A stretch of DNA of 64,000 nucleotides from Streptomyces sp. NBC_00708 (GTDB lineage Bacteria; Actinomycetota; Actinomycetes; Streptomycetales; Streptomycetaceae). The position numbers were made by a program, and so were the translations under genes. Location: positions 7,068,001-7,132,000 of the forward strand of contig CP108997.1 in assembly GCA_036226585.1 (NCBI GenBank), written 5' to 3'. Shown here one piece after another: positions 7,701 through 61,174 of this stretch; the first letter of the stretch is position 1, and every line of letters starts with the position of its first letter. The notes beneath the pieces were generated by a model. It ran no database searches and was not told where the DNA came from. It saw nothing but the letters and a program-made list of their open reading frames with translations.

Positions 7701-7935
7701 CTTCGACCTGGGCGGACACTCCCTCCTCGCCACCCGGGTCATCGCCCGCGTCAGGGCCACCGCCGAACTCACCGTCCCCCTGCGCACCCTCTTCACCCAC
7801 CGCACGGTCGCCGCCTTCGCCGAAGCCGTGGAAGCCGCCCTGAGGGCCGAGATCGACGCCCTGTCGGAGGAGGAGGCCGCCGCCCTCCTCGCTGCGGGCG
7901 ACGACACCCTGGAAGGAACCCGTACGCCGTCATGA
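4753..7935 (+). CDS. Nonribosomal peptide synthetase module C-A-T (basic amino acid predicted)
   Basis: 1060 residues. Condensation domain (about 1-430) with intact HHIVADG near residue 135; adenylation domain (about 450-950) with A3 [10 protein letters not shown] (near 602), A4 [10 protein letters not shown] (near 647), A5 [10 protein letters not shown]7 YRTGDL, A10 Lys in NGKLD; carrier domain with [12 protein letters not shown], pantetheine serine near 988. Reading the ten pocket positions by alignment gives D-T-E-D-I-G-S-V-I-K; two acidic side chains (positions 239 and 278) suggest a basic substrate such as Lys, Orn or Arg. This prediction is mine and not exact. First gene of the operon; its stop overlaps the next start (ATGA). 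Confidence 0.93.
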
Positions 7936-13484: not shown

Positions 13485-14965
13485 GCCCCGCCGCGCCTCC
13501 GGGCTCCCTCATCGAACTCCTGGAGCACCGCGCCGCCCTCCACCCGGACCGCGTCGCCCTCCGCAATGGTCGACGTGCCCTGGACTTCGGCACCTGGCGC
13601 CACCGCGCCGCCGCCCTCGCGCACGGCCTGCTCGCCCGGGGCCTGCGCCCCGGCGACCCGGTCGGACTGCGCTACGGCAGCACGGAGTGGACCGACTACG
13701 CGGTCGCGTACTGCGGGGTGCAGTGGGCGGGCGGCATCGCCGTACCCCTGTCCGACCGGCTGGCCCCGGCCGCCGCCGCGCACATCGTTCAGGACAGCCG
13801 GTGCGCAGGCGTCCTGCACGCCCAGGGCGGTCCGCCGCCCCGGCTGCCCGCAGGGGTGTGGCAGGCGTCCGGCGAGGACACCGAATCCGGGGACGGCGCC
13901 GGCCTGCCCCTGCCCGACCCCGCCGCACCCGCGCAGTACCTCTACACTTCCGGCACCACGGGCCTGCCCAAGGGCGTCCGGGCCACGCATGCCAACCTCG
14001 CCCACGGCTGCACCCTCGACGAACGCCGCAGACCCCTGCGCCACTCGCGCACCTTCCTGCACAGCTTCCCGATCGGCACCAACGCCGGGCAGACCATGCT
14101 GGTGAACTGCCTGGACGCGGCGGCCACCGGGGTCGCCGCCCCCCAGTTCACACCGCTGAGGTTCGCCCGGCTGATCGAGGAGCACGCGGTCGGCAGCGTG
14201 TTCCTGGTGCCCGCCACCGCCATCGAACTGCTCGCCTCCGCCGCCCTCACCCGCTGCGACCTCGGCACGGTCAAGCTGGTCGGGTCGACCGCGGCGGCGC
14301 TCCCGCAGCCCGTCGCGCTGCGGCTCTCACAGGTGTTCGCCGGCGCCCAGATCGTCAACTACTACACCTCGACCGAGGCCGCGCCCGCCCAGATCACCCT
14401 GCTCTACGACCCCGCCCACCCCGACTCGCCCGGCCGCCCCGCCTCGCTCGACCAGCTGCGGGTCACCGGTCCCGGCGGGCGCCCGGCGGCCACCGGCGAA
14501 CCCGGCGAGATCTGGCTGCGCTCACCCACCGCACCCCGCTCCTACCTGGGCGCCCCCGACGCCGACGTCTTCCGGGGCCGTTGGGTGCGCATGGGAGACA
14601 TCGGGCGGCTCGACGAGGACGGCTACCTCCACCTGCTCGACCGGGAGCGCGACGTCATCAAGTCCGGTGCCCACAAGGTCTCCACGATCCAGGTCGAGAA
14701 CGCGCTGCACGCCCACCCGGACATCGCCGACGCCGCCGCCTTCGGCATTCCGCACCCCGTGCTGGGCAGCGTGGTGGCCGCCGTCGTCGTGCCCCGCCGG
14801 GACGAGCCGGACACCACCCGGCTGCGGGCGTTTCTGCTCGACCGGCTCGCCGCGCACGAGCTGCCGGCCCGCATCCTCTTCCGCGCCACCCTGCCTCGCA
14901 ACGAGGGCGGCAAGGTCCTCAAACGTGAACTGCACCGGCTCCTGGACGACGAGGCGACCCCATGA
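13481..14965 (+). CDS. Free-standing AMP-dependent ligase (starter-acid activating)
   Basis: 494 residues, adenylate-forming (ANL) superfamily. A3 loop [11 protein letters not shown] (about residues 154-164), an unusual A5 region YYTSTEA instead of [26 protein letters not shown] hinge region, and C-terminal catalytic Lys in GGKVLKREL. There is no carrier domain attached, and the sequence looks more like acyl-CoA/acyl-acid ligases than amino-acid adenylation domains. Because a separate carrier protein and a separate condensation domain are encoded in the same operon, I infer that it activates a carboxylic acid that starts the peptide. The acid is unknown. Coupled to both neighbours by ATGA overlaps. 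Confidence 0.85.
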
Positions 14966-17900
14966 CCCCTTCCGCGATCCCCGCCGCACCGGCCCCGCTC
15001 GACCCGGCCCAGCACGGGCTCTGGGTCACCGAGCAGACCCTCGACACCGGTTCGGCGTACCACCTCAGCCTCGCCCTGCACTTCCGCGGGCCGCTGGACC
15101 AGGCGGCTCTCGCGCAGGCCTGGGCCCACTGGGTGCGGGACGCCCCCGTGCTCACGGCCCGGACCGACCCGGCGGGGCCTGCCCTGGTCCCGGGCGAGGC
15201 GCCACCGCTGCGACTGGTCACCGTCGCCCCCGGCGACCTCGACAAGCTCCGCGACGAGGAGACCACCGCCCGGTTCGGGCCGGACGGCCCGCTGGTCCGC
15301 CCGACGCTGTTCACCACCGCCCCGGACCGGCACCTGCTGCTCGTCGTCGCCCACCATCTTGTCTTCGACGGCGAATCCAAGGACATCCTGGTCTCCGGAC
15401 TGGCCCGCGCGTACCGGGCGGCGACGGGGGAGGGCGAGCCGCACGCGCCGGCCGATGCACCGTCATTTCCCTTCGCCGAGGCGGACATCGACGCCGCCAC
15501 CCGCTTCTGGTCCGGCCGCTGGCGCGAGAGCCCCGCCCCAGCGCTGCCCGGCATCACCGCCCACCACATGGACCCGGTCGCCCCTGCACCGGGCAGCGCC
15601 TGCGGTTTCCGACGCGAGGGAGACCGGCACGCCCGCCTGGTGGCCGCCGCCGCGACGCTCGGCGTCACCCGCTTCGAGCTGCTGACGGCTGCCTGTCACG
15701 CGCTCATGCTGCGGTACGGGAACACCGGCCCCGCCACCGCGATCGAACTCTCCACCCGCGCACCGGGCTCGCCCCGGCAGGCCGGCCTGCACGTCAACGA
15801 ACTGCCTCTCTTCACCGATCCCCGACCGGAGCGCTCCTTCGCGGACTTCGCCCACGAGGTCCGGGCGCAACTGCGCGCCCTCTACGCCCACCGCACCGTC
15901 CCCCTCAGCCGCGCCGTTCGCGGACTCACCCCGCGTACCGCGCTCTGCCCGCTCTCCCTCAGCTACCGGCGCCGCGACGCCTCCCGGCCCGCCGACTTCG
16001 GCCCGGAACTCGACGTGCGCACCGAGTGGATCGGCTTCGCTGGCACCGCCCGCAATATCGCGCACCTCCAGCTCGTCGACACCCCCGATGCCCTCGAAGG
16101 CAGCCTCCAATACCGCACCGCCGCCTTCGAGCCCGACGCCCCCGCCCGCGTCCTGGACCACTTCCTCACCCTGCTCGACGGCGCGACGGCTGCCCCCGAC
16201 ACCCCCCTGGCCCGCCTGCCGGTCCTTCCCCCGCAGGAACGCGACATCCTGCTGGCCGACACCGCCCGCGCCCCCGGCAACGCCACCACCACCCTGCCCG
16301 CGCTGTTCGCCTCCCAGGCCGCCGCCACCCCCGACGCCATCGCCGTCGTCGAGGGCGACACGGCCCTCACGTACGCCGAACTCGACGCGGCCGTCCGCCG
16401 CCGCGCCCACCGGCTCCGCGCCCAGGGGGCCGGCCCCGGCACCCTCGTCGGTATCGCCCTGCCCCGCTCGACCGCCCAACTCGTCGCTGTACTGGGGGTT
16501 CTCACCTCCGGGGCCGCCTACCTGCCACTCGCCCCCGACCACCCGGCGGAGCGCCTGGCGTTCCTGCGCGCCGACGCCGGTCTCACCCTGGAGACCGCCA
16601 TCGACCCGGGGCCCGAGGACCTGGAGCGGCTCCCCGACGCCCCGGCTGCTCCCGCTCCGCCCGCGCTCACGGACCCCGCCTATGTGCTGTACACCTCCGG
16701 CTCCACCGGTGTGCCCAAGGGTGTCGAGGTCGCGCACGCGGCCCTCGCCAACCTGCTCGCGGCCCTGCGGGACACCACCGGCACCGGGCCCGGCAGCCGC
16801 TGGCTCGGGCTCACCTCCCTCTCCTTCGACATCTCCACCGTCGAACTCTTCCTGCCCCTGGTCACGGGCGGCACCGTCGTCCTCGTCCCCGAGGGCCGCC
16901 ACCGCGACGGCACGGCCCTCGCCGCACTCGTCGAACGCCACCACCTCACCCACGTACAGGCCACACCGAGCGGCTGGCGCACCATGCTGGCCGCCGGGCT
17001 CCACGCGCCGGACCTCGTCGCCCTGACCGGGGGAGAGGCGCTGCCCGAAGCCCTCGCCGGCGAACTGCGCACCGCCGTCGGCCGGCTGGTCAACGTGTAC
17101 GGGCCCACCGAGACGACCGTCTGGTCCACCGCCGCCGAGCTGGGCCCCGAGGACACCGTCACCATCGGCCGACCGCTCGCCAACACCCGCACCCATGTCC
17201 TGGACGCCCACCTCCAGCCGCTGCCGCGCGGACTGACCGGCGAGCTGTACATCGGGGGTGACGGGGTCGCCCACGGCTACCGCGGCCGGCCCGGACTCAC
17301 CGCCTCCCGCTTCCTCCCCGACCCGTTCGGCCCGCCCGGCGCCCGCCTCTACCGCACGGGTGACCTCGTCCGGCTCACCGCCGACGGCCGGATCGCCTTC
17401 GCCGGCCGGTCCGACACCCAGGTGAAGGTGCGCGGCCACCGCATCGAACTCGGCGAGATCGACGCGGCCCTCGGCGGTCACCCACTGGTCGGGCAGGCGG
17501 TGACCATGCTCAGGGAGGCTCCGGACAGGCTGGTGGCCTACGTGGTTCCCGCCCCCGGCCACGTACCGCCCACGACCGACGCACTCCGCGAGCACCTGGC
17601 CCGCACCCTGCCCGCGGCGGCGCTGCCCGACGCGTATGTGACGCTCGACGCGATGCCGCTGACTCCCCACGGCAAACTCGACCGGGCCGCCCTGCCCGAG
17701 CCCCCGCGCGCCCGGTCCGCGCCCGCCGGACCGGCCCCGGCGGACGGCGAGGACGTCGCGGGCATCACCGCCACCGTCCTGGCCATCTGGCGCGATGTGC
17801 TGGACCTCGACGACCTCGGCCCCGACGAGGACCTGTTCGACCTCGGCGGCCACTCCCTGACGATCACCGCCATCGCGGGCCGCATCCGCACGGAGTACGG

Positions 17901-17991
17901 GGTCTCCGTCCCCTTCGACGTCTTCTTCGACAGCCCCACCGTCCACGGCATCGCCGCCCGCGTCGCCGCACTCATCGAGGAGAACCAGTGA
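14962..17991 (+). CDS. Nonribosomal peptide synthetase module C-A-T (Gly-like code)
   Basis: 1009 residues. The condensation domain (about 1-420, HHLVFDG near 131-137) opens with DPAQHGLWVTEQ, resembling the starter-accepting domains of EntF/DhbF-type synthetases. Adenylation domain: YTSGSTGVPKG (near 578), LSFDISTVELF (near 623), VYGPTETT, YRTGDL; pocket code read as D-I-V-Q-L-G-V-V-W-K, one residue from common glycine codes, so Gly is likely. Carrier domain [13 protein letters not shown], serine near 967. I suggest this module takes the starter acyl group first, although it is encoded after the other modules. Its stop overlaps the MbtH start (GTGA). Confidence 0.92.
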   Translation: MTPSAIPAAPAPLDPAQHGLWVTEQTLDTGSAYHLSLALHFRGPLDQAALAQAWAHWVRDAPVLTARTDPAGPALVPGEAPPLRLVTVAPGDLDKLRDEETTARFGPDGPLVRPTLFTTAPDRHLLLVVAHHLVFDGESKDILVSGLARAYRAATGEGEPHAPADAPSFPFAEADIDAATRFWSGRWRESPAPALPGITAHHMDPVAPAPGSACGFRREGDRHARLVAAAATLGVTRFELLTAACHALMLRYGNTGPATAIELSTRAPGSPRQAGLHVNELPLFTDPRPERSFADFAHEVRAQLRALYAHRTVPLSRAVRGLTPRTALCPLSLSYRRRDASRPADFGPELDVRTEWIGFAGTARNIAHLQLVDTPDALEGSLQYRTAAFEPDAPARVLDHFLTLLDGATAAPDTPLARLPVLPPQERDILLADTARAPGNATTTLPALFASQAAATPDAIAVVEGDTALTYAELDAAVRRRAHRLRAQGAGPGTLVGIALPRSTAQLVAVLGVLTSGAAYLPLAPDHPAERLAFLRADAGLTLETAIDPGPEDLERLPDAPAAPAPPALTDPAYVLYTSGSTGVPKGVEVAHAALANLLAALRDTTGTGPGSRWLGLTSLSFDISTVELFLPLVTGGTVVLVPEGRHRDGTALAALVERHHLTHVQATPSGWRTMLAAGLHAPDLVALTGGEALPEALAGELRTAVGRLVNVYGPTETTVWSTAAELGPEDTVTIGRPLANTRTHVLDAHLQPLPRGLTGELYIGGDGVAHGYRGRPGLTASRFLPDPFGPPGARLYRTGDLVRLTADGRIAFAGRSDTQVKVRGHRIELGEIDAALGGHPLVGQAVTMLREAPDRLVAYVVPAPGHVPPTTDALREHLARTLPAAALPDAYVTLDAMPLTPHGKLDRAALPEPPRARSAPAGPAPADGEDVAGITATVLAIWRDVLDLDDLGPDEDLFDLGGHSLTITAIAGRIRTEYGVSVPFDVFFDSPTVHGIAARVAALIEENQ

Positions 17992-18197
17992 ACGCACCCG
18001 CCCTCCGCTACCTGGTGGCGGTCAACGACGAGGAACAGCACGCCCTGTGGCCGGCGGACACGCCCCTGCCCGCCGGCTGGTGGCCCGAGGGCTTCAGCGG
18101 TACGGAGGAGGAGTGCATGGCCCATGTCGACCAGGTGTGGCCCGACATCAGGCCCCTCAGCCTGCGCCGCCGGCTGGCCGGGAAGGAAGAGAGTTGA
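17988..18197 (+). CDS. MbtH-like protein
   Basis: 69 residues, the family's usual size. The conserved pattern is present: NDEEQHALWP, PAGWWPEGF, then EECMAHVDQVWPDIRPLSLR, including the three tryptophans that grip the adenylation domain. MbtH proteins are small partners that fold or activate NRPS adenylation domains; one copy here presumably serves all three modules. GTG start overlaps the upstream stop; its own stop overlaps the TTG start of the carrier protein. Confidence 0.96.
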   Translation: MNAPALRYLVAVNDEEQHALWPADTPLPAGWWPEGFSGTEEECMAHVDQVWPDIRPLSLRRRLAGKEES

Positions 18198-18469
18198 GCA
18201 CCGCGCAGGACCCGGCCATCGAGGCGCGCGCACGGCTGGCCGTACTGATCAGCGACGCCATGGACGGACAGATCGCCGCAGCCGAGATCCTCACCGCCCG
18301 GGGCACCCTCACCGAACTGGGGGTCACCTCCCTGGCCCTGCTCCGGCTCGCCGACACCCTGGAGGAGGAGTACGCCATCGAACTCGACCTCGCCGACCCG
18401 TCGTTCTACCAGGAGAGCGTCGACAGCCTGGCGTCGCGGCTGAGCGGCGACCGGCAGTCCGATGAGTGA
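18194..18469 (+). CDS. Free-standing acyl/peptidyl carrier protein
   Basis: 91 residues from a TTG start that overlaps the MbtH stop and follows GGAAGGAAGAG. The phosphopantetheine site is LTELGVTSLALLRL, the serine about residue 43, followed by an acidic helix (DTLEEEYAIELDL), the pattern of a carrier protein. It should be loaded by the free adenylating enzyme of this operon and hand its cargo to a condensation domain. The TTG start is unusual but is the only one in frame after the MbtH stop. Confidence 0.88.
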   Translation: MSTAQDPAIEARARLAVLISDAMDGQIAAAEILTARGTLTELGVTSLALLRLADTLEEEYAIELDLADPSFYQESVDSLASRLSGDRQSDE

Positions 18470-19880
18470 CCTGGCCACCGTTCGCACCGTGCGCGTCCCC
18501 TTCACCGGGGACCGGGCGGGCACGGCACCCCTCACCTGGGGCCAGCGAGCGATCTGGAACGCCATCCTGCGCACCGCGCCGAACGACATCTACTTCAACA
18601 TCGGGCGCCTGCTCCCGCTGGGGGAGCGCGGCCGTGTGACGGACCTGTCGCAGCTGGCCATCGCGCTTGCCGCACTGATGGAACGTCACGAAGCGCTGCG
18701 TACAAGGCTGTACGGGATCGAGGACGGCGACCCCGGTCAGTCGCTCGCGGACTCCGGTGCGCTCCCGGTCACCGTGGTGGAGGAGGCCGACCCCCAACAG
18801 GCCGAGGCCACCGCCCGCGCCCTGCTCGACGAGCTGTCCGCCACCCGCTTCGACTACGCGGGGGAGTGGCCGCTGCGCGTCGGCGTCGTCCGCCACGAGG
18901 GGCGGGTGACCCACGCGGCGCTGGTGCTCTGCCATCTCGCGGCCGACGGCCACGCCGCGGAGCAGGTGGTGCGCGATCTGCGGCTGCTGGTGCGACGGGG
19001 CTCGGCCGGCCGGGCCCCGCGGACCACCCCGCTGGACCTCGCCCGGGACCAGCACGGACCGGCCGGTGTACGCCGCAGCGAGCGGGCCCTCGCCCATTGG
19101 GAGGGCTTCTACCGGACCATGCCGCCCACGATGTTCCCCCGGGAGACCGCCGCACCCCGCACACCCCGCTTCTGGAGCGGCCGACTGGTGTCCGAGGCGC
19201 TGATGAAGGCGGCCGACGCCCTGGCGGTCGCGCACCGGATCAGTGGGTCGACGGTCCTGATGACCGGTCTGGCCGCCCTGGTCGCGGCCGAGGGCGGGCA
19301 CACGACGGCGGCGATGATGCCCATCGTGGCCAACCGTGCGTCCGAGGACCGGCGGGACCTGGTGGCGATGCTCTCGCAGGACGCGCCGTTCCTCCTCGAT
19401 ACGACCGGCGCCGAACGCTTCACGGACCTGCTTCCCGTGGCGTGGCGCGCGGCCATGGCGGGCTACCGGGCGGCGTCCTACGACCCGGTCGCCTGGGAGG
19501 CCCTGCGTGAACGGATCGGCGGGGAGCGCGGTACACCGGTGCACCCGTACTGCTGCTACAACGACCAGCGGTTCTTCGTACGCCCACCGGACGAGGGACC
19601 TCCGCCGGACGCGGCGGAACTGCGCGCGGCGCAGGCGCGTACGCACTTCGGCTTCCCCGCCACCGAGGAGAAGCTGGGCTGCCGGTACTGCGTCCATGTC
19701 ACCGAGGAGCGGGGCGTCCTCGCCGTCATGCTCACCGCCGACACCGCCTACCTGCCGCCGCCCAGGATCAGGGCGCATCTGTGGGCGCTGGAGGAGATGG
19801 TCGTCGCCTCGGCGTGCGGGCAGGCCCCGGGACCGGCCGACCTGCCCGCGCTGCTGGAGCGCGGAGAGGCAGCCGTGTGA
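18462..19880 (+). CDS. Free-standing condensation-like domain
   Basis: 472 residues, the length of one condensation domain, with TWGQRAIWNAIL at the start and a MERHEALRTRL segment as in condensation enzymes. The active-site motif HHxxxDG reads CHLAADG (near residues 154-160): the first His is Cys, while the catalytic second His and the Asp-Gly are kept. It could join the starter to the first amino acid, or act on a free substrate to release or transfer the chain. Last gene of the synthetase operon; ATG overlaps the carrier stop. Confidence 0.82.
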   Translation: MSDLATVRTVRVPFTGDRAGTAPLTWGQRAIWNAILRTAPNDIYFNIGRLLPLGERGRVTDLSQLAIALAALMERHEALRTRLYGIEDGDPGQSLADSGALPVTVVEEADPQQAEATARALLDELSATRFDYAGEWPLRVGVVRHEGRVTHAALVLCHLAADGHAAEQVVRDLRLLVRRGSAGRAPRTTPLDLARDQHGPAGVRRSERALAHWEGFYRTMPPTMFPRETAAPRTPRFWSGRLVSEALMKAADALAVAHRISGSTVLMTGLAALVAAEGGHTTAAMMPIVANRASEDRRDLVAMLSQDAPFLLDTTGAERFTDLLPVAWRAAMAGYRAASYDPVAWEALRERIGGERGTPVHPYCCYNDQRFFVRPPDEGPPPDAAELRAAQARTHFGFPATEEKLGCRYCVHVTEERGVLAVMLTADTAYLPPPRIRAHLWALEEMVVASACGQAPGPADLPALLERGEAAV

Positions 19881-52414: not shown

Positions 52415-52948
52415 ATGTCGAGCAACTTTCCGGCCTTCGCCGAACTGATCGCGCAGACCGAGCATTCCGCCCTCCACCTGGAGATGCGCGACGTCTACAC
52501 CCCCAAGGGCCCCGTCTTCGTGGACTGGCAGAAGGGCGTCCCGATCGAGTACGACCGGCACGGCGACTGGATCGACCTGGTGCAGGGTGCGATCACGCGC
52601 GGCATCGACTGGCGCCGCGCCCGGATCGTCTCCGAACCGGTCACCGACTTCATCCAGTACGAGTGGGAGACCACCACCATCGTCAACGTGCCCGCGGGGG
52701 AGAAGGTCCGCTGGCTGCCCCGGCAGAACGCGTCGGACCTGCTGCTTCCCGGCAACGACTTCTGGGTCTTCGACGACAGCCTGCTGCGATGGACCACCTT
52801 CCACGGCGACGGCTCCTGGGGCCCGCACGCGTTCTCCGAGGACCCCAAGCTGATCCGCCAGTGCAAGGAGGCGTTCGAATCGGTGTGGGCGCGCGCCGTC
52901 GACCACGCCGACTACACGCCGCCGCGCAAGGAACAGGCCGCGGCCTGA
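52415..52948 (+). CDS. DUF6879-family protein
   Basis: 177 residues, ATG with GGGAG 6 bases upstream. The characteristic elements appear in order: FPAFAELIAQTEHSALHLEMRD, RGIDWRRARIVSEPVTDFI, GEKVRWLPRQNASDLLLPGNDFWVFDD. DUF6879 proteins are abundant in Streptomyces, usually beside an XRE regulator and a DUF397 protein, which are absent here. Function unknown; sequence conservation of the RARIVSEP and LPGNDFW parts suggests a folded effector domain. Confidence 0.85.
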   Translation: MSSNFPAFAELIAQTEHSALHLEMRDVYTPKGPVFVDWQKGVPIEYDRHGDWIDLVQGAITRGIDWRRARIVSEPVTDFIQYEWETTTIVNVPAGEKVRWLPRQNASDLLLPGNDFWVFDDSLLRWTTFHGDGSWGPHAFSEDPKLIRQCKEAFESVWARAVDHADYTPPRKEQAAA

Positions 52949-53024: not shown

Positions 53025-53756
53025 TCAGATGCCGATGATCTCGAACGGCAGCGCCGGCACCCCGCCGAAGCGCGCACCGAACCGCGTCAGCTTGGTCGTC
53101 AGATACCCGGCCGGGTCCGCCATCGGGTTGTCCGGCGGCAGCGACGCCAGATAGCCCGCGTGCGCGGCCAGGGCCTCGATCCCCGCCTCCAGCCCGTCGG
53201 TGACGTCCACGGCGTACGTGGACGCCGGGGAACCGCCGACCGCCAGCCACCGCACACCCGACCAGGGCTCGTGCCCCTCCTCCAGGAGTTCCGGGAAGAC
53301 CCACGGATTTCCGGCGTCGTTCGCCGCGTCGAGCAGCGCGACACCGACGTTGCGGTGGTCGGCGGAGTTCCAGTCACCGCTGCGCCACCGCTCGTAGAAG
53401 TTGATGGTGACCAGCACATCGGGCCGGTACTTCCGGATGGCGCGCGCCAGGTCGCGCCGGAGCGGCAGACCGTTCTCGATGGTGCCGTCCGGATGGCCCA
53501 GGAACTCGACGTCCCGCACCCCCACCGCCTTCGCCGCCCGCACCTGCTCGTCCGCGCGCAGCGCGCCGGTCGCGTCCGGAGCCAGGTCGGGGATTCCGGC
53601 CTCACCCCGGCTCGCGAGCGCGTACGCGACGAACTTCCCCTGCGCCGTCCACCGGGCGACGGCACATGCGGGGCCGTACTCCAGATCGTCGGGATGCGCG
53701 GCGACACACAGCGCGCGCCCCCAGTCCTCCGGCAACGGCTCGTACGGCTCGGTCAT
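53025..53756 (-). CDS. PIG-L family zinc deacetylase
   Basis: 243 residues. The zinc-binding AHPDDLE motif (near residues 20-26) and the later NSADHRNVG His pair (near 129-137) identify the LmbE/PIG-L family, which removes acetyl groups from N-acetylglucosamine-type sugars, including mycothiol intermediates and antibiotics. A stretch ERWRSGDWNSADHRN positions the substrate in relatives. Monocistronic or with the hydrolase upstream (58 bases), same strand. Confidence 0.92.
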   Translation of the reverse strand: MTEPYEPLPEDWGRALCVAAHPDDLEYGPACAVARWTAQGKFVAYALASRGEAGIPDLAPDATGALRADEQVRAAKAVGVRDVEFLGHPDGTIENGLPLRRDLARAIRKYRPDVLVTINFYERWRSGDWNSADHRNVGVALLDAANDAGNPWVFPELLEEGHEPWSGVRWLAVGGSPASTYAVDVTDGLEAGIEALAAHAGYLASLPPDNPMADPAGYLTTKLTRFGARFGGVPALPFEIIGI

Positions 53757-53814: not shown

Positions 53815-54717
53815 CTACGGCACGGTCGCCATCAGGCCCGCCAGGCGCTCCTCGAAGAAGGCGAGCGCGCGCAGATGGTAGGAACGGGCGGCGCGGCCGA
53901 GGCTGATGTTGTGCCCGGCTCCCGGCTGCCGCTCCACCCGGACGAGCGGCGCCCGCTCCAGGCGGGCGGTCAGGTCGGCGATGTGCGGCTCCTCGTGCAG
54001 CCACCACGCCTCGTACTCGGCGAACGTCAGCCGAAGCGGTACGTCGACGCGCGGCGCGAGTTCGTCGAACATCCCCGGCCACAGCGCCACTTCGGACGCC
54101 TCGCGCGAGGGCATCGGGGCCACCAGCGCCTGCGCCGCCCGGAAGGTGCCCGGGGGATACAGGTCCAGTGGCCCCCAGGTGCGCTCCGAGCGCACATGGG
54201 GGCGGATGCGCGACAGGCCCGCCGACTCCACGGCGTAACGGTGCCCGAGCCCCGAGACGTCCAGGGCGAGCAGCAGACCCGGGGAGTGCGCGGCGGTCGT
54301 GAGAGCGAGCTTGCCGCCGTAGGAGTGGGCGAGCATGAGGAAGCCCGCGCCCACGTCGTGCCGCCCGGCGAAGGCGTCGAGCGCCGCCGGCAGGACGACG
54401 GCCTGCTCGCCGAGCGTCAGACCGGCGGGCACCTGCGCGGCGGACCGGCCGTAGCCGGGCCGGTCCAGCGCCAGCACGGTGAAGCCGAGCCGGGCGCCGA
54501 GCGCGAGCAGGGACAGACCGGGGTGCGCCTGCCCGTCGAAGTAGCCGGCCCGCATCCCGCCCCCGTGCACCGCGACGACCGTCGCCCGGGGACCGCCCTC
54601 CGGCGGTTCGGCCACCAGGCCCGACAGCGTCAGGCCCGCCGCCTCCAGCAGGAGCGGGCGTACGCCTGCCGAGTGGCTCGGCACCGTCTTCTTCCGGTCC
54701 GTCCTGGACACACTCAC
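53815..54717 (-). CDS. Alpha/beta hydrolase
   Basis: 300 residues. Oxyanion region HGGGMRAG (near residues 50-57), nucleophile elbow AHSYGG (near 128-133; Ala replaces the first Gly of GxSxG), and the catalytic His in GAGHNIS near the C-terminus. Likely an esterase or related hydrolase of small substrates. Same strand as, and 58 bases upstream of, the PIG-L deacetylase, so the two may form an operon. Confidence 0.88.
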   Translation of the reverse strand: MSVSRTDRKKTVPSHSAGVRPLLLEAAGLTLSGLVAEPPEGGPRATVVAVHGGGMRAGYFDGQAHPGLSLLALGARLGFTVLALDRPGYGRSAAQVPAGLTLGEQAVVLPAALDAFAGRHDVGAGFLMLAHSYGGKLALTTAAHSPGLLLALDVSGLGHRYAVESAGLSRIRPHVRSERTWGPLDLYPPGTFRAAQALVAPMPSREASEVALWPGMFDELAPRVDVPLRLTFAEYEAWWLHEEPHIADLTARLERAPLVRVERQPGAGHNISLGRAARSYHLRALAFFEERLAGLMATVP

Positions 54718-54856: not shown

Positions 54857-56122
54857 TCATGCCCGTGCGGTCACCGCCTCGGCGGCCGGCTCCGGCTCGG
54901 GCACCCGCGTCCGCTCCGCCCACCGCACCACCGGCCCGCCGGCCAGCAGCACACCGACGAACAGGGCGCCGATGACCAGCCACCCGGGCCCGCCGAGCCG
55001 GTCGGGCACCAGGGTGACCAGCGTCGGACCCGCGATCAGGGCGAAGGCGTCACCGGTCGCGAAGGCGCCCAGGTACTGCCCCTGCGCGTTCGCGGGCGCC
55101 AGTTCGTAGCGCAGCCCCCACCGGGCCGCCTCGCCCCAGATCTCACCGAAGGTGAACAGCATCGCCACCGCCAGCAGCACGGTGGCCGCCGCCCACGTCG
55201 GCATCGCGCCGGTGAACGCGGTGACCGCACACGCGGCCGCGAGCACGATCGCCGTCAGCCGCTGGAGCCGCGCGGCCCCGCGTACGGTGTCCGCGTCGCG
55301 CGCCAGACGCACCTGGAGCGCCACCACCATCAGGGTGTTGACCAGCATGATCCACGCCGCGAGCGCCCGGGGCGCGTCGGTGTGCACGACCAGCCAGAGC
55401 GGCAGCCCCACCGCGAGGGCGGTCGGTCCGATCCTGACGATCCCCGAGACCTGCGCGACCGCCAGATACGGCACATCGCGCAAGGCTCCGCGCGGACGCT
55501 TGCCGCGCGGTTCACGCGGGACGCCCGGGACTTCGGGCAGCCGCATGTAGAGCCCCGCCACCAGCACCATGGCCAGCGCGTTGCCCCAGAACAGCGACAG
55601 GAACGCGGTCTCGGAGTCGAGCGCGATGACCAGCCCCGCCGCGAGCGAGGCCAACGAGAAACCGCCGTTGAACACGGAGCGCATGTACGCCGAGAGCCGG
55701 ACCCGGCCCTCCCGGCCCATCACACCCGTCACCAGCGCGCCCCGCGCGACGTGGCCGCTCTGCTCGGCCAGCCCGAGGACGACGGCCATCACCAGATAGG
55801 CCGCGAAGGAGTGCACGAAGGCCGCCGCGGCCAGCGCCGCCGCCTTCCCGAGCGCGAACACGGCCGTGGTGCCGCGCGGCCCGAACCGGTCGGCGAGCTG
55901 CCCCGCCGGCACGCCCGTGAACAGGGCCAGGACACCGGCGAGCGACATGCCGATGCCCACCTGACCCGGCGACAGGCCCACCACATGGACGAAGTAGACG
56001 GCACCACCGGTGACATAGAGTCCGTTGCCGAGGCTGGCCACGGCGGTGCACAGCACCAGCAGCCGGCCGGGTCCGGGATCGGGCAGCATACGAGAGGTCA
56101 GGCGGGAGATCGGACCGGACAC
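54857..56122 (-). CDS. MFS efflux-type transporter
   Basis: 421 residues from a GTG at 56122 (GAGG about 8 bases upstream); an upstream ATG at 56176 lacks a site and would overlap the promoter of the divergent gene. Twelve helices, with the A-motif loop GQLADRFGPRGTT after helix 2 and an EQSGHVARG segment in helix 4, typical of DHA1-like exporters. Divergent from the TsaA-like gene. Substrate unknown; it might export the product of the adjacent peptide operon, but nothing in sequence shows this. Confidence 0.85.
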   Translation of the reverse strand: MSGPISRLTSRMLPDPGPGRLLVLCTAVASLGNGLYVTGGAVYFVHVVGLSPGQVGIGMSLAGVLALFTGVPAGQLADRFGPRGTTAVFALGKAAALAAAAFVHSFAAYLVMAVVLGLAEQSGHVARGALVTGVMGREGRVRLSAYMRSVFNGGFSLASLAAGLVIALDSETAFLSLFWGNALAMVLVAGLYMRLPEVPGVPREPRGKRPRGALRDVPYLAVAQVSGIVRIGPTALAVGLPLWLVVHTDAPRALAAWIMLVNTLMVVALQVRLARDADTVRGAARLQRLTAIVLAAACAVTAFTGAMPTWAAATVLLAVAMLFTFGEIWGEAARWGLRYELAPANAQGQYLGAFATGDAFALIAGPTLVTLVPDRLGGPGWLVIGALFVGVLLAGGPVVRWAERTRVPEPEPAAEAVTARA

Positions 56123-56232
56123 GGCAGGCACCTCGCTCGGTGGGACGGGCCGGCACCGCGCACGGCGGACCGGCATACATGGTTCGTGGATTCCGGACGA
56201 CCGGGATCCACCCGACAGGAAGAGACGGCGCG

Positions 56233-56685
56233 ATGGACGGGATCAGCCCGATCGGCGTGGTGCGCGGCGGACGCCGGCAGGCCTACGAGGACGGGTGGGG
56301 AGTGGAGGTCTCGCGGATCGAACTCGACCCGGACGTCCTCGACGCGTCGGCGACCCTCGGCCTCGACGCGTACTCGCACATCGAGGTCATCTTCTCGTTC
56401 CACCTGGCGCGGAAGACCTGCACCGGCAGCCAGTATCCCCGGGGCAACACCGACTGGCCGCTGACCGGGATCCTCGCGCAGCGCGCCCCCAACCGGCCCA
56501 ACCACCTGGGCGTGACGGTGTGCGCGCTCGACGCCGTCGACGGGCTGACGCTCACGGTGAACGGCCTGGACGCCCTCGACGGTACGCCGGTGCTCGATGT
56601 GAAGCCGTACCAGCCGGAGTTCGCCCCGCGCGGCGAGGTGCGCAGCCCCGCCTGGTACAGCGAGCTGATGCGCGACTACTTCTGA
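56233..56685 (+). CDS. TsaA-like (TrmO/YaeB) methyltransferase
   Basis: 150 residues from the ATG at 56233 (AGGAAGAG 8 bases upstream). PIGVVRGGRRQA opens the domain; QRAPNRPNHLGVTVC and LDVKPYQPEF are the family signatures of the TsaA fold, whose E. coli member TrmO methylates the t6A base of tRNA-Thr using SAM. Actinobacterial versions may act on other substrates. Convergent with the FAD monooxygenase of the repeat-peptide operon (20-base gap). Confidence 0.85.
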   Translation: MDGISPIGVVRGGRRQAYEDGWGVEVSRIELDPDVLDASATLGLDAYSHIEVIFSFHLARKTCTGSQYPRGNTDWPLTGILAQRAPNRPNHLGVTVCALDAVDGLTLTVNGLDALDGTPVLDVKPYQPEFAPRGEVRSPAWYSELMRDYF

Positions 56686-56705: not shown

Positions 56706-58190
56706 TCACGACCGGGCCACCAGGTCCGTACGCGCCGCCGCTATCAGCGTGTTGGCCTCGTCCCGGGGCAACTCCTCGTCGACCAGCAGCGCCACCGGGA
56801 GCCCCGCCGCGCCACGGACCCGGGCGGCGGCCGCACTGCGGGTCACCCGACCGCCGTCCGGCCGCGCCCGCACGGCGAGGAAGTCGATACCGGGCAGCGG
56901 CCGTCCTGGCGCCTCGTCCACGACCAGGCCCACCGCCCGCGCACCGTCCCCGCCCCGCAGTACGCAGGTGCCGTCCCGGTGCTCCACCTCGACGAGCCGG
57001 TGGCGCAGCCGCACCCGCCCCACCGTGAGCGGCACATCGACGGGCTCCGCGGTGGTGGGCCGGCCGGCCAGCCGCGCCACCGTGCGCGCGACGAACTCCG
57101 GGTCCCGCTCCCGTAACCGGCCGTATGTGTTCGCGCTCCGGCGGCTGCGCAGGGCGAACACCGTCTGATGCCCCTCCAGCCGGTCGCCGCGGCACAACTG
57201 CTCGAACCACGCGGTGCTCTCGGCCGCCTCCTCCTGCGCCTGCGCGACGACCGGCTGCCGGGCACCCTCGTACGCGGCCAGCGCCTCGTCCGGGTCGTCG
57301 TGTTCCGCGAGGGACCGGGCGAGACACAGTGCGTCGTCGATGGCCAGGACCGTGCCCGAACCGGTGGAGAAGTGGACCGTGTGCGCGGCGTCCCCCACGA
57401 GCACCGTCCGGCCGTCGGTCCAGCGCCGGTTGACGACCGTACGGAACTCCTGCCAGCCCGCCGTCCGCGAGACGAGCGGCGCACCGCCCAGCTCCTCCCG
57501 GAACAGCCCGGCGAGCCGCGTCTGCGTCTCCTCCGGAGGCAGCCCGAGCAGTCCGAGCGCGGCCAGGGTGTCCGGATCGGCCTCCACGATGAAGGTGCTG
57601 GCGTCCGCCGCGTGCGGATAGGCGTGCACCACGAGAGGGCCGGCGCCCAGGTCCTTGAGCAGGAAGCACGGCTCCAGGACCGCGGGGGTGCTCATCCAGA
57701 CGAACAGGGTGCGGCCCGATGTCATGGTGGTGCCGAACCGGTCGGCGCGCTCCCGGCGCCGCGCGCCGCCCGCCCCGTCCGCCAGCACGACCAGATCGGC
57801 CTGCCGGGGCAGCCTGATGACGTCGCGGCTGACCAGCCGCACATTCGGGCTGCGCGTGGCGAGTTCGCGTACATGGGCGTGGAAGACCTGCCGGGAGATC
57901 CCCGACATGCCGAAGGCGCCGGACCGGATGCGTTCGTCGCCGACCGCCGTGACCGTCTCGTCCCACGTCGCGTACGCGGATTCCGGCAGCCGCAGCGCGT
58001 CGGGGTGGACGGCGCGCAGGCGCTGCGCGAAGTCGTCCGTCACCACGATGCCCGCCCCCGGCCCGCGTTCCTCGCGGTAGTAGAGGTCGATGGACGTGTC
58101 CGGCATCAGCCGGGCCAGTTCCAGGGCGCAGAAGGCCCCGGCGGGCCCCGCGCCCACCACGGCCACCGCACGGACGCCGGAGCCGCTCAT
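56706..58190 (-). CDS. FAD monooxygenase, salicylyl/anthraniloyl-CoA hydroxylase type
   Basis: 494 residues. FAD-binding GAGPAGAFCALEL at the N-terminus and the second flavin motif GDAAHTVHFSTGSG (near residue 267), which is the specific wording of salicylyl-CoA 5-hydroxylase/anthraniloyl-CoA monooxygenase proteins rather than ordinary aromatic hydroxylases. In those proteins an Old-Yellow-Enzyme barrel follows; here the last 110 residues keep only fragments (GIDFLAV, AARVRGAAGLPVAL, EANTLIAAARTDLVA), so the barrel is shrunken. Expected to oxidise an aromatic ring, here possibly the indole of Trp in the repeat peptide. Last gene of the operon; overlaps the globin stop. Confidence 0.85.
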   Translation of the reverse strand: MSGSGVRAVAVVGAGPAGAFCALELARLMPDTSIDLYYREERGPGAGIVVTDDFAQRLRAVHPDALRLPESAYATWDETVTAVGDERIRSGAFGMSGISRQVFHAHVRELATRSPNVRLVSRDVIRLPRQADLVVLADGAGGARRRERADRFGTTMTSGRTLFVWMSTPAVLEPCFLLKDLGAGPLVVHAYPHAADASTFIVEADPDTLAALGLLGLPPEETQTRLAGLFREELGGAPLVSRTAGWQEFRTVVNRRWTDGRTVLVGDAAHTVHFSTGSGTVLAIDDALCLARSLAEHDDPDEALAAYEGARQPVVAQAQEEAAESTAWFEQLCRGDRLEGHQTVFALRSRRSANTYGRLRERDPEFVARTVARLAGRPTTAEPVDVPLTVGRVRLRHRLVEVEHRDGTCVLRGGDGARAVGLVVDEAPGRPLPGIDFLAVRARPDGGRVTRSAAAARVRGAAGLPVALLVDEELPRDEANTLIAAARTDLVARS

Positions 58191-58720
58191 GCCGGTGTCC
58201 CGTCCCAGTGGAAGCGCTCGCCGCGGGCCAGGGCGGCGCCGCGGGACACCGCCGTCATCTCCCCGCTGGCGATCTTCATGATCGTCAGGAACTCGGTGAA
58301 GTGCGGCTCCGGAGCGTTCAGTCGTGTCCCGGCCTCCTTCATCAGGGCCAGCCAGCGCAGCCGTTGCTCCCGGGAGATCAGGAAGTGCGCGTGCGCCTGG
58401 TGCATCTTGGGGTCCCAGGCGGCGGTGAGGTCGTTCTCGCCGTAGATCCGGCGGAAGTGGTCGTACAGCCGTGCGGCGTGCCGGTCCCAGTCGTGGACGG
58501 CGAACAGCGGCAGCAGCAGTTCGTCCTTCGAGACCAGTTCGTAGAAGCGCGTGCTCAGTGCCTGGAAGAACTCCGCGCCGCCGATGCCCGTCCAGAAGTC
58601 GGAGACCTTCCGGTCGACCTGCGTCGCGCTCATCTGCTCGGCCGACCGCAGCCCCTGGTCGGCGACGAGGAGCACCTTGCCGTCGTGCCGGGGGACCGAA
58701 GTGGCGGGTTCGGGGGACAT
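58187..58720 (-). CDS. Truncated-hemoglobin-like globin
   Basis: 177 residues. After a 35-residue N-terminal extension, the 2-over-2 globin pattern appears: WTGIGGAEFFQALSTRFYELV, DELLLPLF, RLYDHFRRIYGEN, then MHQAHAHFLISREQRLRWLALM, where a His in the HAHF run is the candidate proximal heme ligand. Truncated globins bind oxygen or NO, and some act as oxidases. It sits between the FemX-like enzyme and the FAD monooxygenase with which it overlaps (ATGA), so it may supply or activate oxygen for modification of the peptide. Confidence 0.8.
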   Translation of the reverse strand: MSPEPATSVPRHDGKVLLVADQGLRSAEQMSATQVDRKVSDFWTGIGGAEFFQALSTRFYELVSKDELLLPLFAVHDWDRHAARLYDHFRRIYGENDLTAAWDPKMHQAHAHFLISREQRLRWLALMKEAGTRLNAPEPHFTEFLTIMKIASGEMTAVSRGAALARGERFHWDGTPA

Positions 58721-58732
58721 GGGCGTACTCCT

Positions 58733-59833
58733 TCAGTGGGATCCGTCGAGAACCAGGCCGGCCGCCAGGAGGGTGCTGACGGTGCAGCCGCGCACCCGCT
58801 TCGCCTGTACGGTTCCGAGCCCGTAGGCGATCGTGGTGATGCCCTGCCCGGGGGCCAGCTCGGCCGGGCGGTAGAACATGGTGGCGAAGTACGTGAACGA
58901 GGCGTCGGGGTGCTCGTAGTCGGTGCCGCTCATCAGCGCGGTCCACTGGTCGCCGTCGCGCACCAGCATCGTGAACGACAGCAGCGCGCCGTCCTTGCGG
59001 GCCTCGACGACCCAGACGTTCTCCGGGCCGAAGTGGTCGCGCAGATGCCGGAAGGACCCGGCCTCCCGTTCCGCGTCGGGCACCCCGCCGTACTTCGTCA
59101 CGATCTGGGCCCGCAGCGCGACGAGTTCGGGCTCGTCGTCACCGATCGGGCGTTCGCTGATCTCGACGCCGTGCTCCGCGATCTCCCGCAGCTCGCGCCG
59201 CACGGCGAAGCGCCGGTTGCGGCGCAGCCCGGCGATGTAGCCGTCGAGGTCGTCCCAGGTGACGTCCATGTCGCAGCGGTCCACCATCGGCACCACGTCG
59301 AACCCCTCGGCGCGCAGGGCGTCCAGGAACTCGGGGTGGTCGGGCCGCAGGAAGAGCGCGGAGACACTGCGGATTCCCTGCGCGCGGCACCAGTCGAGCA
59401 GGGCGCGCACATACTCCTTCAGCACCTGCGGGTCGCGGGCGCCGGGGCCGGTCGGGGCCGACTCGTAGTTGGGGCCCATCAGCAGGCAGGAGGGGAACAG
59501 GGCGTCGGCGGAAAGCCCGTGCCACGGGTGCGGCCCCTCGGCGACGACTCCCTCGCCGACCGATCCGCCGGACAGCACGCGCTGCGGATCGAAGCGCACA
59601 TGGCCGGTCGGTGCCTCCATCACACCGCCGATCAGGGCCACCCGGTCACCGTCGGGGCCGGGCAGTCCGAAGGTACGGAGACCGCCGGGAATCCGGCCCT
59701 CGGCGAGCGAGATCCAGCGATGGCGCAACGTGACCGGTGCCCTGCCGACCCAGCGGTCCCAGTTCTCGTCGATCCCGCCCCGTACGTGCAACCCGGTGGT
59801 GGTCTCAGCGCGTTGTGTACGTGGTGTCGTCAT
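58733..59833 (-). CDS. FemX/peptidogalycan-type GNAT-fold transferase
   Basis: 366 residues, about twice a GNAT domain, as in COG3146/FemAB-like proteins. Features: HRWISLAEGRIPGG near the N-terminus, PNYESAPT, the LLDWCRAQGIRSVSALFLRPDHPEF segment, IAGLRRNRRFAVRRELREI, and YFATMFYRPAELAPGQGI. Relatives transfer aminoacyl groups from tRNA or acyl groups from CoA to amines. In this operon it could attach an amino acid or acyl group to the repeat peptide or its released pieces. ATG with AAGGA 8 bases upstream; it follows the precursor after a hairpin. Confidence 0.78.
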   Translation of the reverse strand: MTTPRTQRAETTTGLHVRGGIDENWDRWVGRAPVTLRHRWISLAEGRIPGGLRTFGLPGPDGDRVALIGGVMEAPTGHVRFDPQRVLSGGSVGEGVVAEGPHPWHGLSADALFPSCLLMGPNYESAPTGPGARDPQVLKEYVRALLDWCRAQGIRSVSALFLRPDHPEFLDALRAEGFDVVPMVDRCDMDVTWDDLDGYIAGLRRNRRFAVRRELREIAEHGVEISERPIGDDEPELVALRAQIVTKYGGVPDAEREAGSFRHLRDHFGPENVWVVEARKDGALLSFTMLVRDGDQWTALMSGTDYEHPDASFTYFATMFYRPAELAPGQGITTIAYGLGTVQAKRVRGCTVSTLLAAGLVLDGSH

Positions 59834-59864
59834 GGCGATGTCCTTCCGGTCCCGCCCGCCCGTC

Positions 59865-59895
59865 CGGCCCGGCGATCCGCAGGGCCGCCGGGCCG
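59865..59895 (-). terminator. Hairpin after the repeat-peptide gene
   Basis: CGGCCCGGCG (59865-59874) pairs with CGCCGGGCCG (59886-59895), 10 bp with an 11-base loop, between the repeat-peptide stop and the FemX-like start. It would reduce read-through so the precursor is made in excess over the enzymes. Confidence 0.65.
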
Positions 59896-59915
59896 AAGGG
59901 GCTGTGAGTGAACGG

Positions 59916-60287
59916 TCAGGCCGCCAGGGGCTGCGGCGCGCGGTCCCAGACGGACAGGTCGTCGGAGGCCGAGTCCCAGACGGACAGGTCTCGGGGCGCC
60001 GAGTCCCAGACGGACAGGTCGTCGGAGACCGCGTCCCAGACCGACAGGTCGCCGGGTGCCGCGTCCCACACCGCCAGGTCCTCGGACGCCGAGTCCCAGA
60101 CGGCGAGGTCCCCGGGGGTCGAGTCCCAGACGGAGAGGTCCCCGGCGCTGGAGTCCCACACGGCGAGTTCGCCGGCGGTCCGGTCCCAGACGGAGAGGCC
60201 CTCGGTGGCCCGGTCCCAGACCGGTGCCGCGTCCCATACGCCGAATTCCTCGGCCGACGTCGCTCGGAAAACAGAGAGTGCGCGCAT
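59916..60287 (-). CDS. Multi-core ribosomal peptide precursor with eleven VWD repeats
   Basis: 123 residues with GAAGAGG 7 bases before the ATG. A short leader (about residues 1-16, MRALSVFRATSAEEFG) is followed by Val-Trp-Asp at residues 17, 23 and then every ten residues from 33 to 113: nine units of the form L-(S/A)-V-W-D-(S/A/R)-x-x-x-(D/E). The spacer residues vary while L, V, W, D stay fixed, as if each unit were cut out and only the core mattered. The tail is RAPQPLAA. It lies in an operon with a FemX-like transferase, a globin and a flavin monooxygenase. I infer a precursor whose Trp cores are oxidised. No homologue is recalled. Confidence 0.85.
   Translation of the reverse strand: MRALSVFRATSAEEFGVWDAAPVWDRATEGLSVWDRTAGELAVWDSSAGDLSVWDSTPGDLAVWDSASEDLAVWDAAPGDLSVWDAVSDDLSVWDSAPRDLSVWDSASDDLSVWDRAPQPLAA
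59943..60197 (-). repeat. Tandem 30-bp coding repeat
   Basis: Eight and a half copies of a 30-base unit, in frame with the precursor gene, encoding the ten-residue VWD modules. The forward strand shows GTCCCAGACGGACAG or GTCCCACACCGCCAG in each copy; third codon positions and spacers vary, so copies are not freshly duplicated. Confidence 0.9.
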
Positions 60288-60335
60288 TGATTACCTCTTC
60301 ATTTGATTCACGGAAGGCGATCCAGCGGACCGCCG

Positions 60336-60357
60336 GAACGCGACCTTTGCCGCGTTC
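60336..60357. promoter_or_regulatory. Dyad between AraC gene and repeat-peptide gene
   Basis: GAACGCG (60336-60342) and CGCGTTC (60351-60357) form a perfect 7-bp-arm inverted repeat with an 8-base spacer, 49 bases before the precursor ATG and overlapping the regulator stop. It may be the AraC protein's binding site for a precursor promoter, or a hairpin in the transcript. Confidence 0.5.
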
Positions 60358-61174
60358 ATAAATGAGTGTTGCAGGCGGGTTCACGACCTGTCTTCTCCTC
60401 AATTGCTGAGCTGTCCATCGCCGGAGAGAGGGCCGGGGATTCCGTTTGCGCAGGTACCTCGATACCGGGAAGGGCGAACAGAATGGGCGGCTGTGACCAT
60501 GTGCGCGGACGCAGTACGAGCTCGACCTCGCAGTCGGCGAACGGGTCGAGACGAAGGGGCCCGAGCAGGGCGGTGAACAGGGCGGTCCCGGGCGGTCGGC
60601 CCGGCATCCCCGTGGCCGCCCGCATGGTCGCGTGCAGGTAGCAGACGCCAGGCGGGAGGCGGGGCAGAGAGAAAGGCCCAAGACGGTCCGTGGTGGTCCA
60701 GCCGAAGGGCTGACCTTGGAGGATGGGGCCGTCGAAGGCCCCGATACAGACCGGCGAGCCGGGCTCCGCGTCGGCCCGCACGATCCCGCGCACCCGGCAG
60801 CGGCCCACCCGGCCCCGCCGGCCGGCCGACGGGGCCACGGCGAGTGCGCCCCGGCCCCGGCTCAGCTCGCGATACCGGGTGGGAGTGACACCCACGGATT
60901 CGGAGAAACGTCTGGTGAACGTGCCGGTGCTGCTGTAACCCACTTCGGCGGAAATGGTGGCAACCCCGAGATCGGAAAATTGCAGAAGCCTTTTTGCCTC
61001 GCCCATGCGTACGGCGCCGAGAAAGCGCCCGGGGGTCACCCCCGTGAACTGGTCGAAGACGCGGAGCAAATGGAATTTGCTCACCAGTACGGCACGGGCG
61101 ACATCATCCAGGCTGAGCGGTTCCGCATAACGTTCCCGGATGATCCGCACGGCCCGTTCCACAACCTGCTCCAT
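60356..61174 (-). CDS. AraC-family regulator with C-terminal beta-sandwich domain
   Basis: 272 residues from the ATG at 61174 (CAGGAG 6 bases upstream). Unlike most AraC proteins, the double helix-turn-helix is at the N-terminus (about residues 5-105: SLDDVARAVLVSKFHLLRVF and ATISAEVGYSSTGTFTRRFSESVGVTPTRYR). The C-terminal 150 residues resemble a carboxypeptidase-regulatory/transthyretin-like beta sandwich (VRGIVRA, GPFSLPRLPPGVCYLHAT). The last sense codon is TTA, so full-length protein needs the bldA tRNA. It precedes the repeat-peptide gene by 68 bases on the same strand and is its likely activator. Confidence 0.88.
   Translation of the reverse strand: MEQVVERAVRIIRERYAEPLSLDDVARAVLVSKFHLLRVFDQFTGVTPGRFLGAVRMGEAKRLLQFSDLGVATISAEVGYSSTGTFTRRFSESVGVTPTRYRELSRGRGALAVAPSAGRRGRVGRCRVRGIVRADAEPGSPVCIGAFDGPILQGQPFGWTTTDRLGPFSLPRLPPGVCYLHATMRAATGMPGRPPGTALFTALLGPLRLDPFADCEVELVLRPRTWSQPPILFALPGIEVPAQTESPALSPAMDSSAIEEKTGREPACNTHL

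Follow-up and report, generated by a model that had tools for sequence, protein, structure and literature searches.

We analysed a stretch of 64,000 nucleotides from Streptomyces sp. NBC_00708 (assembly GCA_036226585.1, contig CP108997.1, positions 7,068,001 to 7,132,000 of the forward strand), here called the window, which carries a small gene for a protein built on Val-Trp-Asp (VWD) repeats together with genes for tailoring-type enzymes. An earlier note on this DNA had described an operon with an AraC regulator, a 123-residue VWD-repeat peptide, a hairpin, a FemX-like transferase, a truncated globin and a flavin adenine dinucleotide (FAD) monooxygenase, and all of these parts were recovered. 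The gene set is larger than described there: genes for an MFS transporter, an alpha/beta-hydrolase, a PIG-L family protein, a TrmO-like protein and a DUF6879 protein recur at other loci of the same kind. The features of the window are as follows (positions are counted from its first letter; counts in brackets refer to the 14 VWD loci introduced below).

59916–60287, minus strand: candidate VWD multi-core precursor, 123 residues, 11 VWD, 16 residues ahead of the first unit, no Cys, Lys or His
59858–59902, minus strand: G+C-rich stem-loop between precursor and FemX-like gene, folding z −2.75
58733–59833, minus strand: FemX-fold (tandem GNAT) transferase, predicted to be aminoacyl-tRNA-dependent (Pfam, predicted model, invariant K345)
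58187–58720, minus strand: truncated globin of HbO (group II) type with N-terminal extension (Pfam, PDB sequence matches)
56706–58190, minus strand: FAD monooxygenase homologue, VioD being the nearest solved structures (Pfam, PDB, NCBIfam)
54857–56122, minus strand: MFS transporter, likely exporter (Pfam; 14/14)
53025–53756, minus strand: PIG-L family amidase, closest to the NCBIfam model BshB1 but scoring under its cut-off (14/14)
52415–52948, plus strand: DUF6879 protein, predicted phospholipase-D-like fold without HKD signature (12/14)
56302–56685, plus strand: TrmO-like S-adenosylmethionine (SAM)-dependent methyltransferase domain, start uncertain, the reading frame may begin at 56140
53815–54717, minus strand: alpha/beta-hydrolase, possible peptidase or esterase (Pfam; 4/14)
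60356–61174, minus strand: AraC-family regulator (Pfam; 4/14)

The AraC, FemX-like, globin and FAD monooxygenase proteins pass the Pfam cut-offs, the FemX-like protein narrowly so (PF13480, 29.4 bits, cut-off 22; PF04339, 27.2 bits, cut-off 27), and the globin and monooxygenase genes overlap by four bases. The open reading frame (ORF) of the precursor opens with ATG behind a GAGG site. As counted before, it holds eleven VWD units, nine of them at 10-residue spacing (the intervals are 6 and then nine times 10), and the tandem array is visible in the DNA with a period of 30 and 79% matches. Shuffling the residues of the protein 5000 times gave on average 0.19 VWD and at most 3. Neither Pfam nor NCBIfam yielded a match to the window precursor. 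An overlapping plus-strand ORF (59908–60306) was rejected on its G+C content by codon position (0.56/0.68/0.89 vs. 0.71/0.57/0.91 on the minus strand), from which it is unlikely to be coding.

A homologue search with the precursor sequence returned 26 candidates, none at E ≤ 0.01, and relatives were therefore sought through the FemX-like protein. FemX relatives at E ≤ 1e-40 were present in five of 295 sampled Streptomyces genomes, two of which have VWD loci, and in two of 394 genomes of the class, one with VWD; in another family (297 genomes sampled), relatives at E ≤ 1e-60 occurred in five genomes and VWD precursors in four. Scanning genome contigs for the FemX-like protein with six short patterns, an approach that reaches close relatives only, yielded eight loci, each with a VWD-rich ORF adjoining the FemX gene, and a plasmid search added the locus of Streptomyces sp. 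NBC_01003 (plasmid NZ_CP108708.1). A protein search scored 7995 candidates and listed 48 FemX clusters at E ≤ 1e-8, the context being read for fetched loci only. In total, 14 VWD loci were compiled: the window, eight from other Streptomyces, one from Paractinoplanes and four from a third family. As the window and L009 (FemX 99% identical) as well as L066 and L067 (FemX 356/372) are near-identical, the number of independent events is smaller than 14. No description of a VWD precursor was found in open-access PMC papers, judged by title and start of abstract of the matches listed; subscription papers and most preprints lie outside this collection.

The precursors at the 14 loci comprise 46–133 residues with 5–16 VWD each and 151 VWD in all. 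Every one of their 153 Trp residues is followed by Asp (151 VWD, one TWD, one SWD); in addition, there are two VFD units. It is this Trp context that provides independent support for the fixity of the motif, since within VWD the proportion of nonsynonymous differences (pN) is zero by construction, the units having been chosen by their VWD. In the eight arrays of constant period, the synonymous proportion (pS) is 0.15–0.45 inside VWD, whereas the linkers drift in a near neutral fashion (pN 0.32–0.53, pS 0.23–0.45). Units are spaced by 5, 6, 7, 10, 12 or 15 residues across loci, and because the spacing is variable, no helical or solenoid period accounts for the motif. One precursor (L068) has its C-terminus exactly on a VWD.

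We considered whether the array might be a repeat protein of structural or adhesive function whose enzyme neighbours are unrelated to it, or else a DNA microsatellite in translation. The repeats are short, and a triple-VWD DNA pattern run over the 394 genomes of the class matched nine of them including the window, as compared with four for the backward pattern used as control. The eight matches outside the window (among L043–L051) look like short repeats of nearly identical DNA, and FemX, globin or monooxygenase matches were not found around them, although two of the contigs (L050 and L051) measure less than 5 kb and leave little flank to read. The earlier note had named repeat proteins without the enzymes as a finding that would refute its proposal of a modified peptide system; in these genomes the matches without the enzymes look like short DNA repeats. 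A fresh microsatellite is rejected on the synonymous variation of the Val codons of VWD (GTC 104, GTG 44, GTT 2, GTA 1) and on the diverged linkers, and with the enzymes constant in 14 loci and three families, this explanation as a whole is very improbable.

Only 6–17 residues precede the first VWD, with no sequence common across groups. Directly 3' of the precursor, a hairpin is strong in all ten loci in which the precursor lies straight before FemX (z −2.75 to −5.29), while in L069, where the globin gene follows, the folded stretch is not significant (z −1.30). The hairpin possibly raises the ratio of precursor to enzymes. The combination of a Trp-rich ORF and a following hairpin ahead of FemX, seen in ten loci, could also be taken for a Trp-sensing leader peptide that attenuates the downstream operon. 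Val and Asp are, however, nearly as fixed as Trp, a terminator-like site with a T run was not found in the scanned region of the window, and L066, L067 and L068 encode the precursor and the enzymes on different strands, an arrangement that excludes a leader peptide acting in cis at these loci. An attenuator of the trp type is thereby largely refuted and is the least credible of all explanations considered here.

With regard to the partner genes, those for FemX, globin, monooxygenase, MFS transporter and PIG-L are each present in all 14 VWD loci. DUF6879 is encoded in 12 of them; the contig ends in L009, and in L079 the gene was not found within 12 kb. The AraC regulator and the alpha/beta-hydrolase of the window type each occur in four. 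The TrmO-like gene is present in ten loci, always on the strand opposite to FemX (10/10), and was not found in L066–L069; this distribution and a second TrmO-type gene elsewhere in the window's genome (G000:C1:6709508-6709825) led us to reject it as a core part. Ribosomally synthesized and post-translationally modified peptides (RiPPs) are generally marked by a short precursor gene that is conserved across genomes next to enzymes of tailoring type. The VWD loci show this pattern, with five constant partners in 14 of 14, and fixed VWD, free linkers and the same partners throughout bear out the proposal of a multi-core precursor accompanied by such enzymes.

At five loci the FemX relative is more distant (L070, 52% identity; L076, 42%; L077, 37%; L060, 32%; L078, 29%). 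These loci show no match to VWD precursor, globin or monooxygenase, and none of their frame segments contains more than one VWD. In L070, an ORF repeating another motif (at least four copies of one tripeptide within 15 residues of each other) was not found either. Judging from gene content, precursor, globin and monooxygenase appear to travel together in the loci read, and FemX, PIG-L and DUF6879 seem to form a separable set. The tie between FemX and the peptide holds in one direction, FemX being present in all 14 VWD loci; it is not strict, as L070 has FemX without a precursor.

Several neighbours of these distant relatives are recorded in their own right. Near the FemX/PIG-L/DUF6879 trio of L070 lies a fusion of Lant_dehydr_C and nitroreductase domains (L070:256-1887). 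In L060, two adjacent ORFs (L060:8037-10177) comprise the FemX relative (32%) and one that is alike by eye, and a Cys-rich protein of 149 residues (L060:14587-15036) resembles by eye the methylamine dehydrogenase light chain, with no Pfam support. In L076, the FemX relative (42%) is accompanied by another ORF that looks FemX-like by eye, and the neighbouring phosphoenolpyruvate (PEP) mutase-like and phosphonopyruvate decarboxylase-like genes (by eye) together with a gene resembling those for non-ribosomal peptide synthetases (NRPS) may represent a phosphonate peptide cluster.

The enzymes were assigned by profile and structure comparison. Since the FemX profile found nothing convincing among PDB sequences (E 0.59; E 0.4), a fold search was made, and on its predicted model the FemX-like protein has the tandem GNAT fold of FemX and is predicted to be aminoacyl-tRNA-dependent. 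Tandem GNAT acetyltransferases are present in the fold lists too, lower down, and acylation from acyl-coenzyme A (acyl-CoA) or acyl carrier protein (ACP) appears less likely for this GNAT-type fold. The earlier suggestion that the released pieces are capped can be refined accordingly: the cap is more probably an amino acid than some other acyl group, because the model resembles aminoacyl-tRNA-dependent transferases. All 53 aligned sequences carry K345; in the weak alignment (E 0.4), profile position 310 falls on position 268 of FemXWv, and Lys305 of FemXWv would fall near 347. The globin matches HbO-type structures (2bmm, 6.8e-14; 1ngk, 4.1e-12), and its H110, present in 14 of 14 loci, aligns with the His of the RMRH sequence of 2bmm, which we take to be the haem binder. 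This match and the histidine at the proximal place identify it, at the level of sequence, as a truncated haemoglobin of group II (HbO). The catalytic motif HxK(x)4D of phospholipase D enzymes was not found in the DUF6879 protein.

The closest solved structures of the monooxygenase are those of VioD, which hydroxylates a Trp-derived indole in violacein biosynthesis. Yet its score with the NCBIfam VioD model NF053547 (126.6 bits) is far below the cut-off of 620, and with 494 residues it is about 120 residues longer than this 372-position model. Kynurenine 3-monooxygenase is among the weaker PDB matches (about 1e-9), and PIG-L proteins are zinc amidases. This raises a kynurenine-type route on the peptide, in which the globin cleaves the indole ring, PIG-L deformylates, the monooxygenase hydroxylates the resulting aniline and FemX aminoacylates it. 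PIG-L and globin are constant (14/14), which speaks for this route; on the other hand, the monooxygenase is much closer to VioD than to kynurenine monooxygenase, PIG-L occurs without globin in L070, and we know of no truncated globin that acts as a tryptophan dioxygenase. We therefore regard this route as unlikely.

Together with the modelled enzyme folds, the precursor architecture, the fixed VWD amid drifting linkers and the constant partner genes incline us, by a narrow balance, to the view that the protein is a leaderless multi-core RiPP-like precursor, each VWD Trp of which would be oxidized, aminoacylated from tRNA and released, with export of the resulting small product. VWD would serve as both substrate and recognition site. 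Oxidation of Trp, with hydroxylation of the indole, would fall to the VioD-like flavoenzyme and the globin acting together, and the globin may perform a further oxidation step. The FemX-like enzyme would add an aminoacyl group at the amino end of the fragment or on the oxidized ring, and PIG-L may take off an acyl or aminoacyl group. Linkers could be cut by host proteases or the alpha/beta-hydrolase, and the MFS transporter would export the product. Because Trp is genetically encoded, a first ligase of the type described below for pearlins would not be needed, and the repetition of VWD would give many product copies per translation.

Several findings weigh against this view. Neither a leader peptide in the usual sense nor a recognition element was found in the 14 precursors, a PqqD-type domain had no Pfam match among the ten window proteins scanned, and no protease gene common to all 14 loci was recognised. 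In L070, FemX, PIG-L and DUF6879 occur although precursor, globin and monooxygenase were not found, so that this trio can act on something else. The monooxygenase scores higher with the NCBIfam salicylyl-CoA 5-hydroxylase (249.6 bits, cut-off 1078) than with VioD, and its substrate may thus not be an indole. Furthermore, the FemX-type natural-product enzymes named in a 2026 review act on small molecules (PMC12945691).

Some of these observations fit a different explanation, according to which VWD is a docking motif and the protein, as a disordered and multivalent scaffold or carrier, brings together enzymes acting on a small molecule from elsewhere. The missing leader, the drifting linkers and the variable copy number suit it equally well, the trio of L070 does without the precursor, and neighbouring modules supply small molecules. 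Trp as the substrate, however, fits a monooxygenase whose nearest solved relatives are VioD, and the five loci without precursor also lack globin and monooxygenase. A scaffold therefore appears rather improbable, if less so than the kynurenine-type route.

Oxidation of an encoded Trp within a precursor invites comparison with the pearlins. In the published work, a flavoenzyme oxidizes the Trp of a scaffold peptide to a hydroxyquinone in the ammosamide (amm) and Bacillus bha systems, and the amino groups derive from amino acids added via tRNA (PMC11117183, PMC12424672, PMC9850906). Flavin oxidation of peptide-bound Trp and tRNA-dependent amino acid addition would be common to both systems, candidate enzymes being present on the VWD side. 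Pearlins have Trp appended to the scaffold C-terminus by a LanB-like peptide aminoacyl-tRNA ligase (PEARL), whereas in the VWD precursors it is encoded, internal and repeated 5–16 times; moreover, the VWD cassette has a transferase with the FemX fold and includes a globin as well. No Lant_dehydr domain, and hence no LanB-like PEARL, was detected among the ten window proteins scanned, and so the VWD cassette is not a pearlin; as a working analogy, we file it under the RiPP/pearlin kind.

The natural-product transferases of FemX type that depend on aminoacyl-tRNA, namely Orf11/Sbb17/Sba18, VlmA, DhpH-C, DhpK and PacB, share the tandem GNAT fold predicted for the VWD FemX protein, whose invariant lysine near the C-terminus may tentatively correspond to theirs. 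The FemX-type enzymes given as examples in the review have small-molecule substrates, whereas the VWD FemX has a repeat precursor as its constant neighbour (PMC12945691). The VWD precursor is unlike multi-core RiPPs in having no leader and a core of three residues. Several cores with spacers are known from the cyanobactins and the fungal dikaritins. Microviridins are reported to resemble the VWD precursor in combining several cores and spacers in one precursor (PMC5934393). ATP-grasp, YcaO, P450 and radical SAM domains were not found among the cassette proteins scanned.

The genomic contexts of the cassette differ. In six Streptomyces loci (L011–L016), a PigE-type aminotransferase (L015: 1264.7 bits, cut-off 850) and a FabF-like ketosynthase are encoded upstream on the same strand. 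Five of them, those whose contig reaches far enough, also have a PigD-like thiamine diphosphate (ThDP) enzyme, whose score in L015 (784 bits) does not reach the cut-off of 950 and for which no PDB sequence match was obtained at E ≤ 0.01. In one strain read further upstream (L011–L016/L052 region), type I polyketide synthase (PKS)-like and thioesterase-like genes (by eye) and a flavin-reductase homologue are present. In L010 (163–4914) and L079 (299–7204), genes for a D-beta-phenylalanine aminomutase and adenylation, ACP and dehydratase-like proteins adjoin the cassette; the two beta-phenylalanine modules are 63–89% identical, and L079 has shikimate-pathway genes in addition. No match to PigD, PigE, ketosynthase or aminomutase was found in the window, L009 and L066–L069. 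Strains thus appear to join the VWD unit to different chemistry, PigD/PigE/ketosynthase in six Streptomyces and beta-phenylalanine genes in two loci, which suggests that the cassette is a portable unit.

More tentatively, and with doubts prevailing, we propose that the cassette embodies a new biosynthetic logic: a leaderless protein with three-residue cores, in which globin and flavoenzyme convert the many encoded copies of Trp and FemX extends them from tRNA, would provide a portable Trp-derived pharmacophore for unrelated pathways of actinomycetes, such as PigD/PigE-type amination with a polyketide or beta-phenylalanine chemistry. To our knowledge, neither a tailoring globin nor a FemX-type transferase of a RiPP has been known before. 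If true, globins would gain a biosynthetic role and FemX-type enzymes peptide substrates, and a bare VWD-repeat peptide would be a very simple, tunable multi-copy substrate, its copy number and spacing being free in nature. The VWD motif is also a direct handle for genome mining that annotation can miss; a public plasmid record annotates its VWD precursor as 'hypothetical protein' only.

Two observations on neighbouring genes may be added. AlkZ-like DNA glycosylases are known to confer self-resistance to DNA-alkylating products, and a gene of this type adjoins the cassette in two Streptomyces (L013:13534-14532, PF06224, 167.5 bits; L014:10214-10831, a similar ORF). In the window, large ORFs in a run at 4753–19880 look by eye like NRPS modules, and of the neighbour-module proteins of the other loci only the adenylation protein matched the window, with 25–37% identity, within this distant NRPS-like run.

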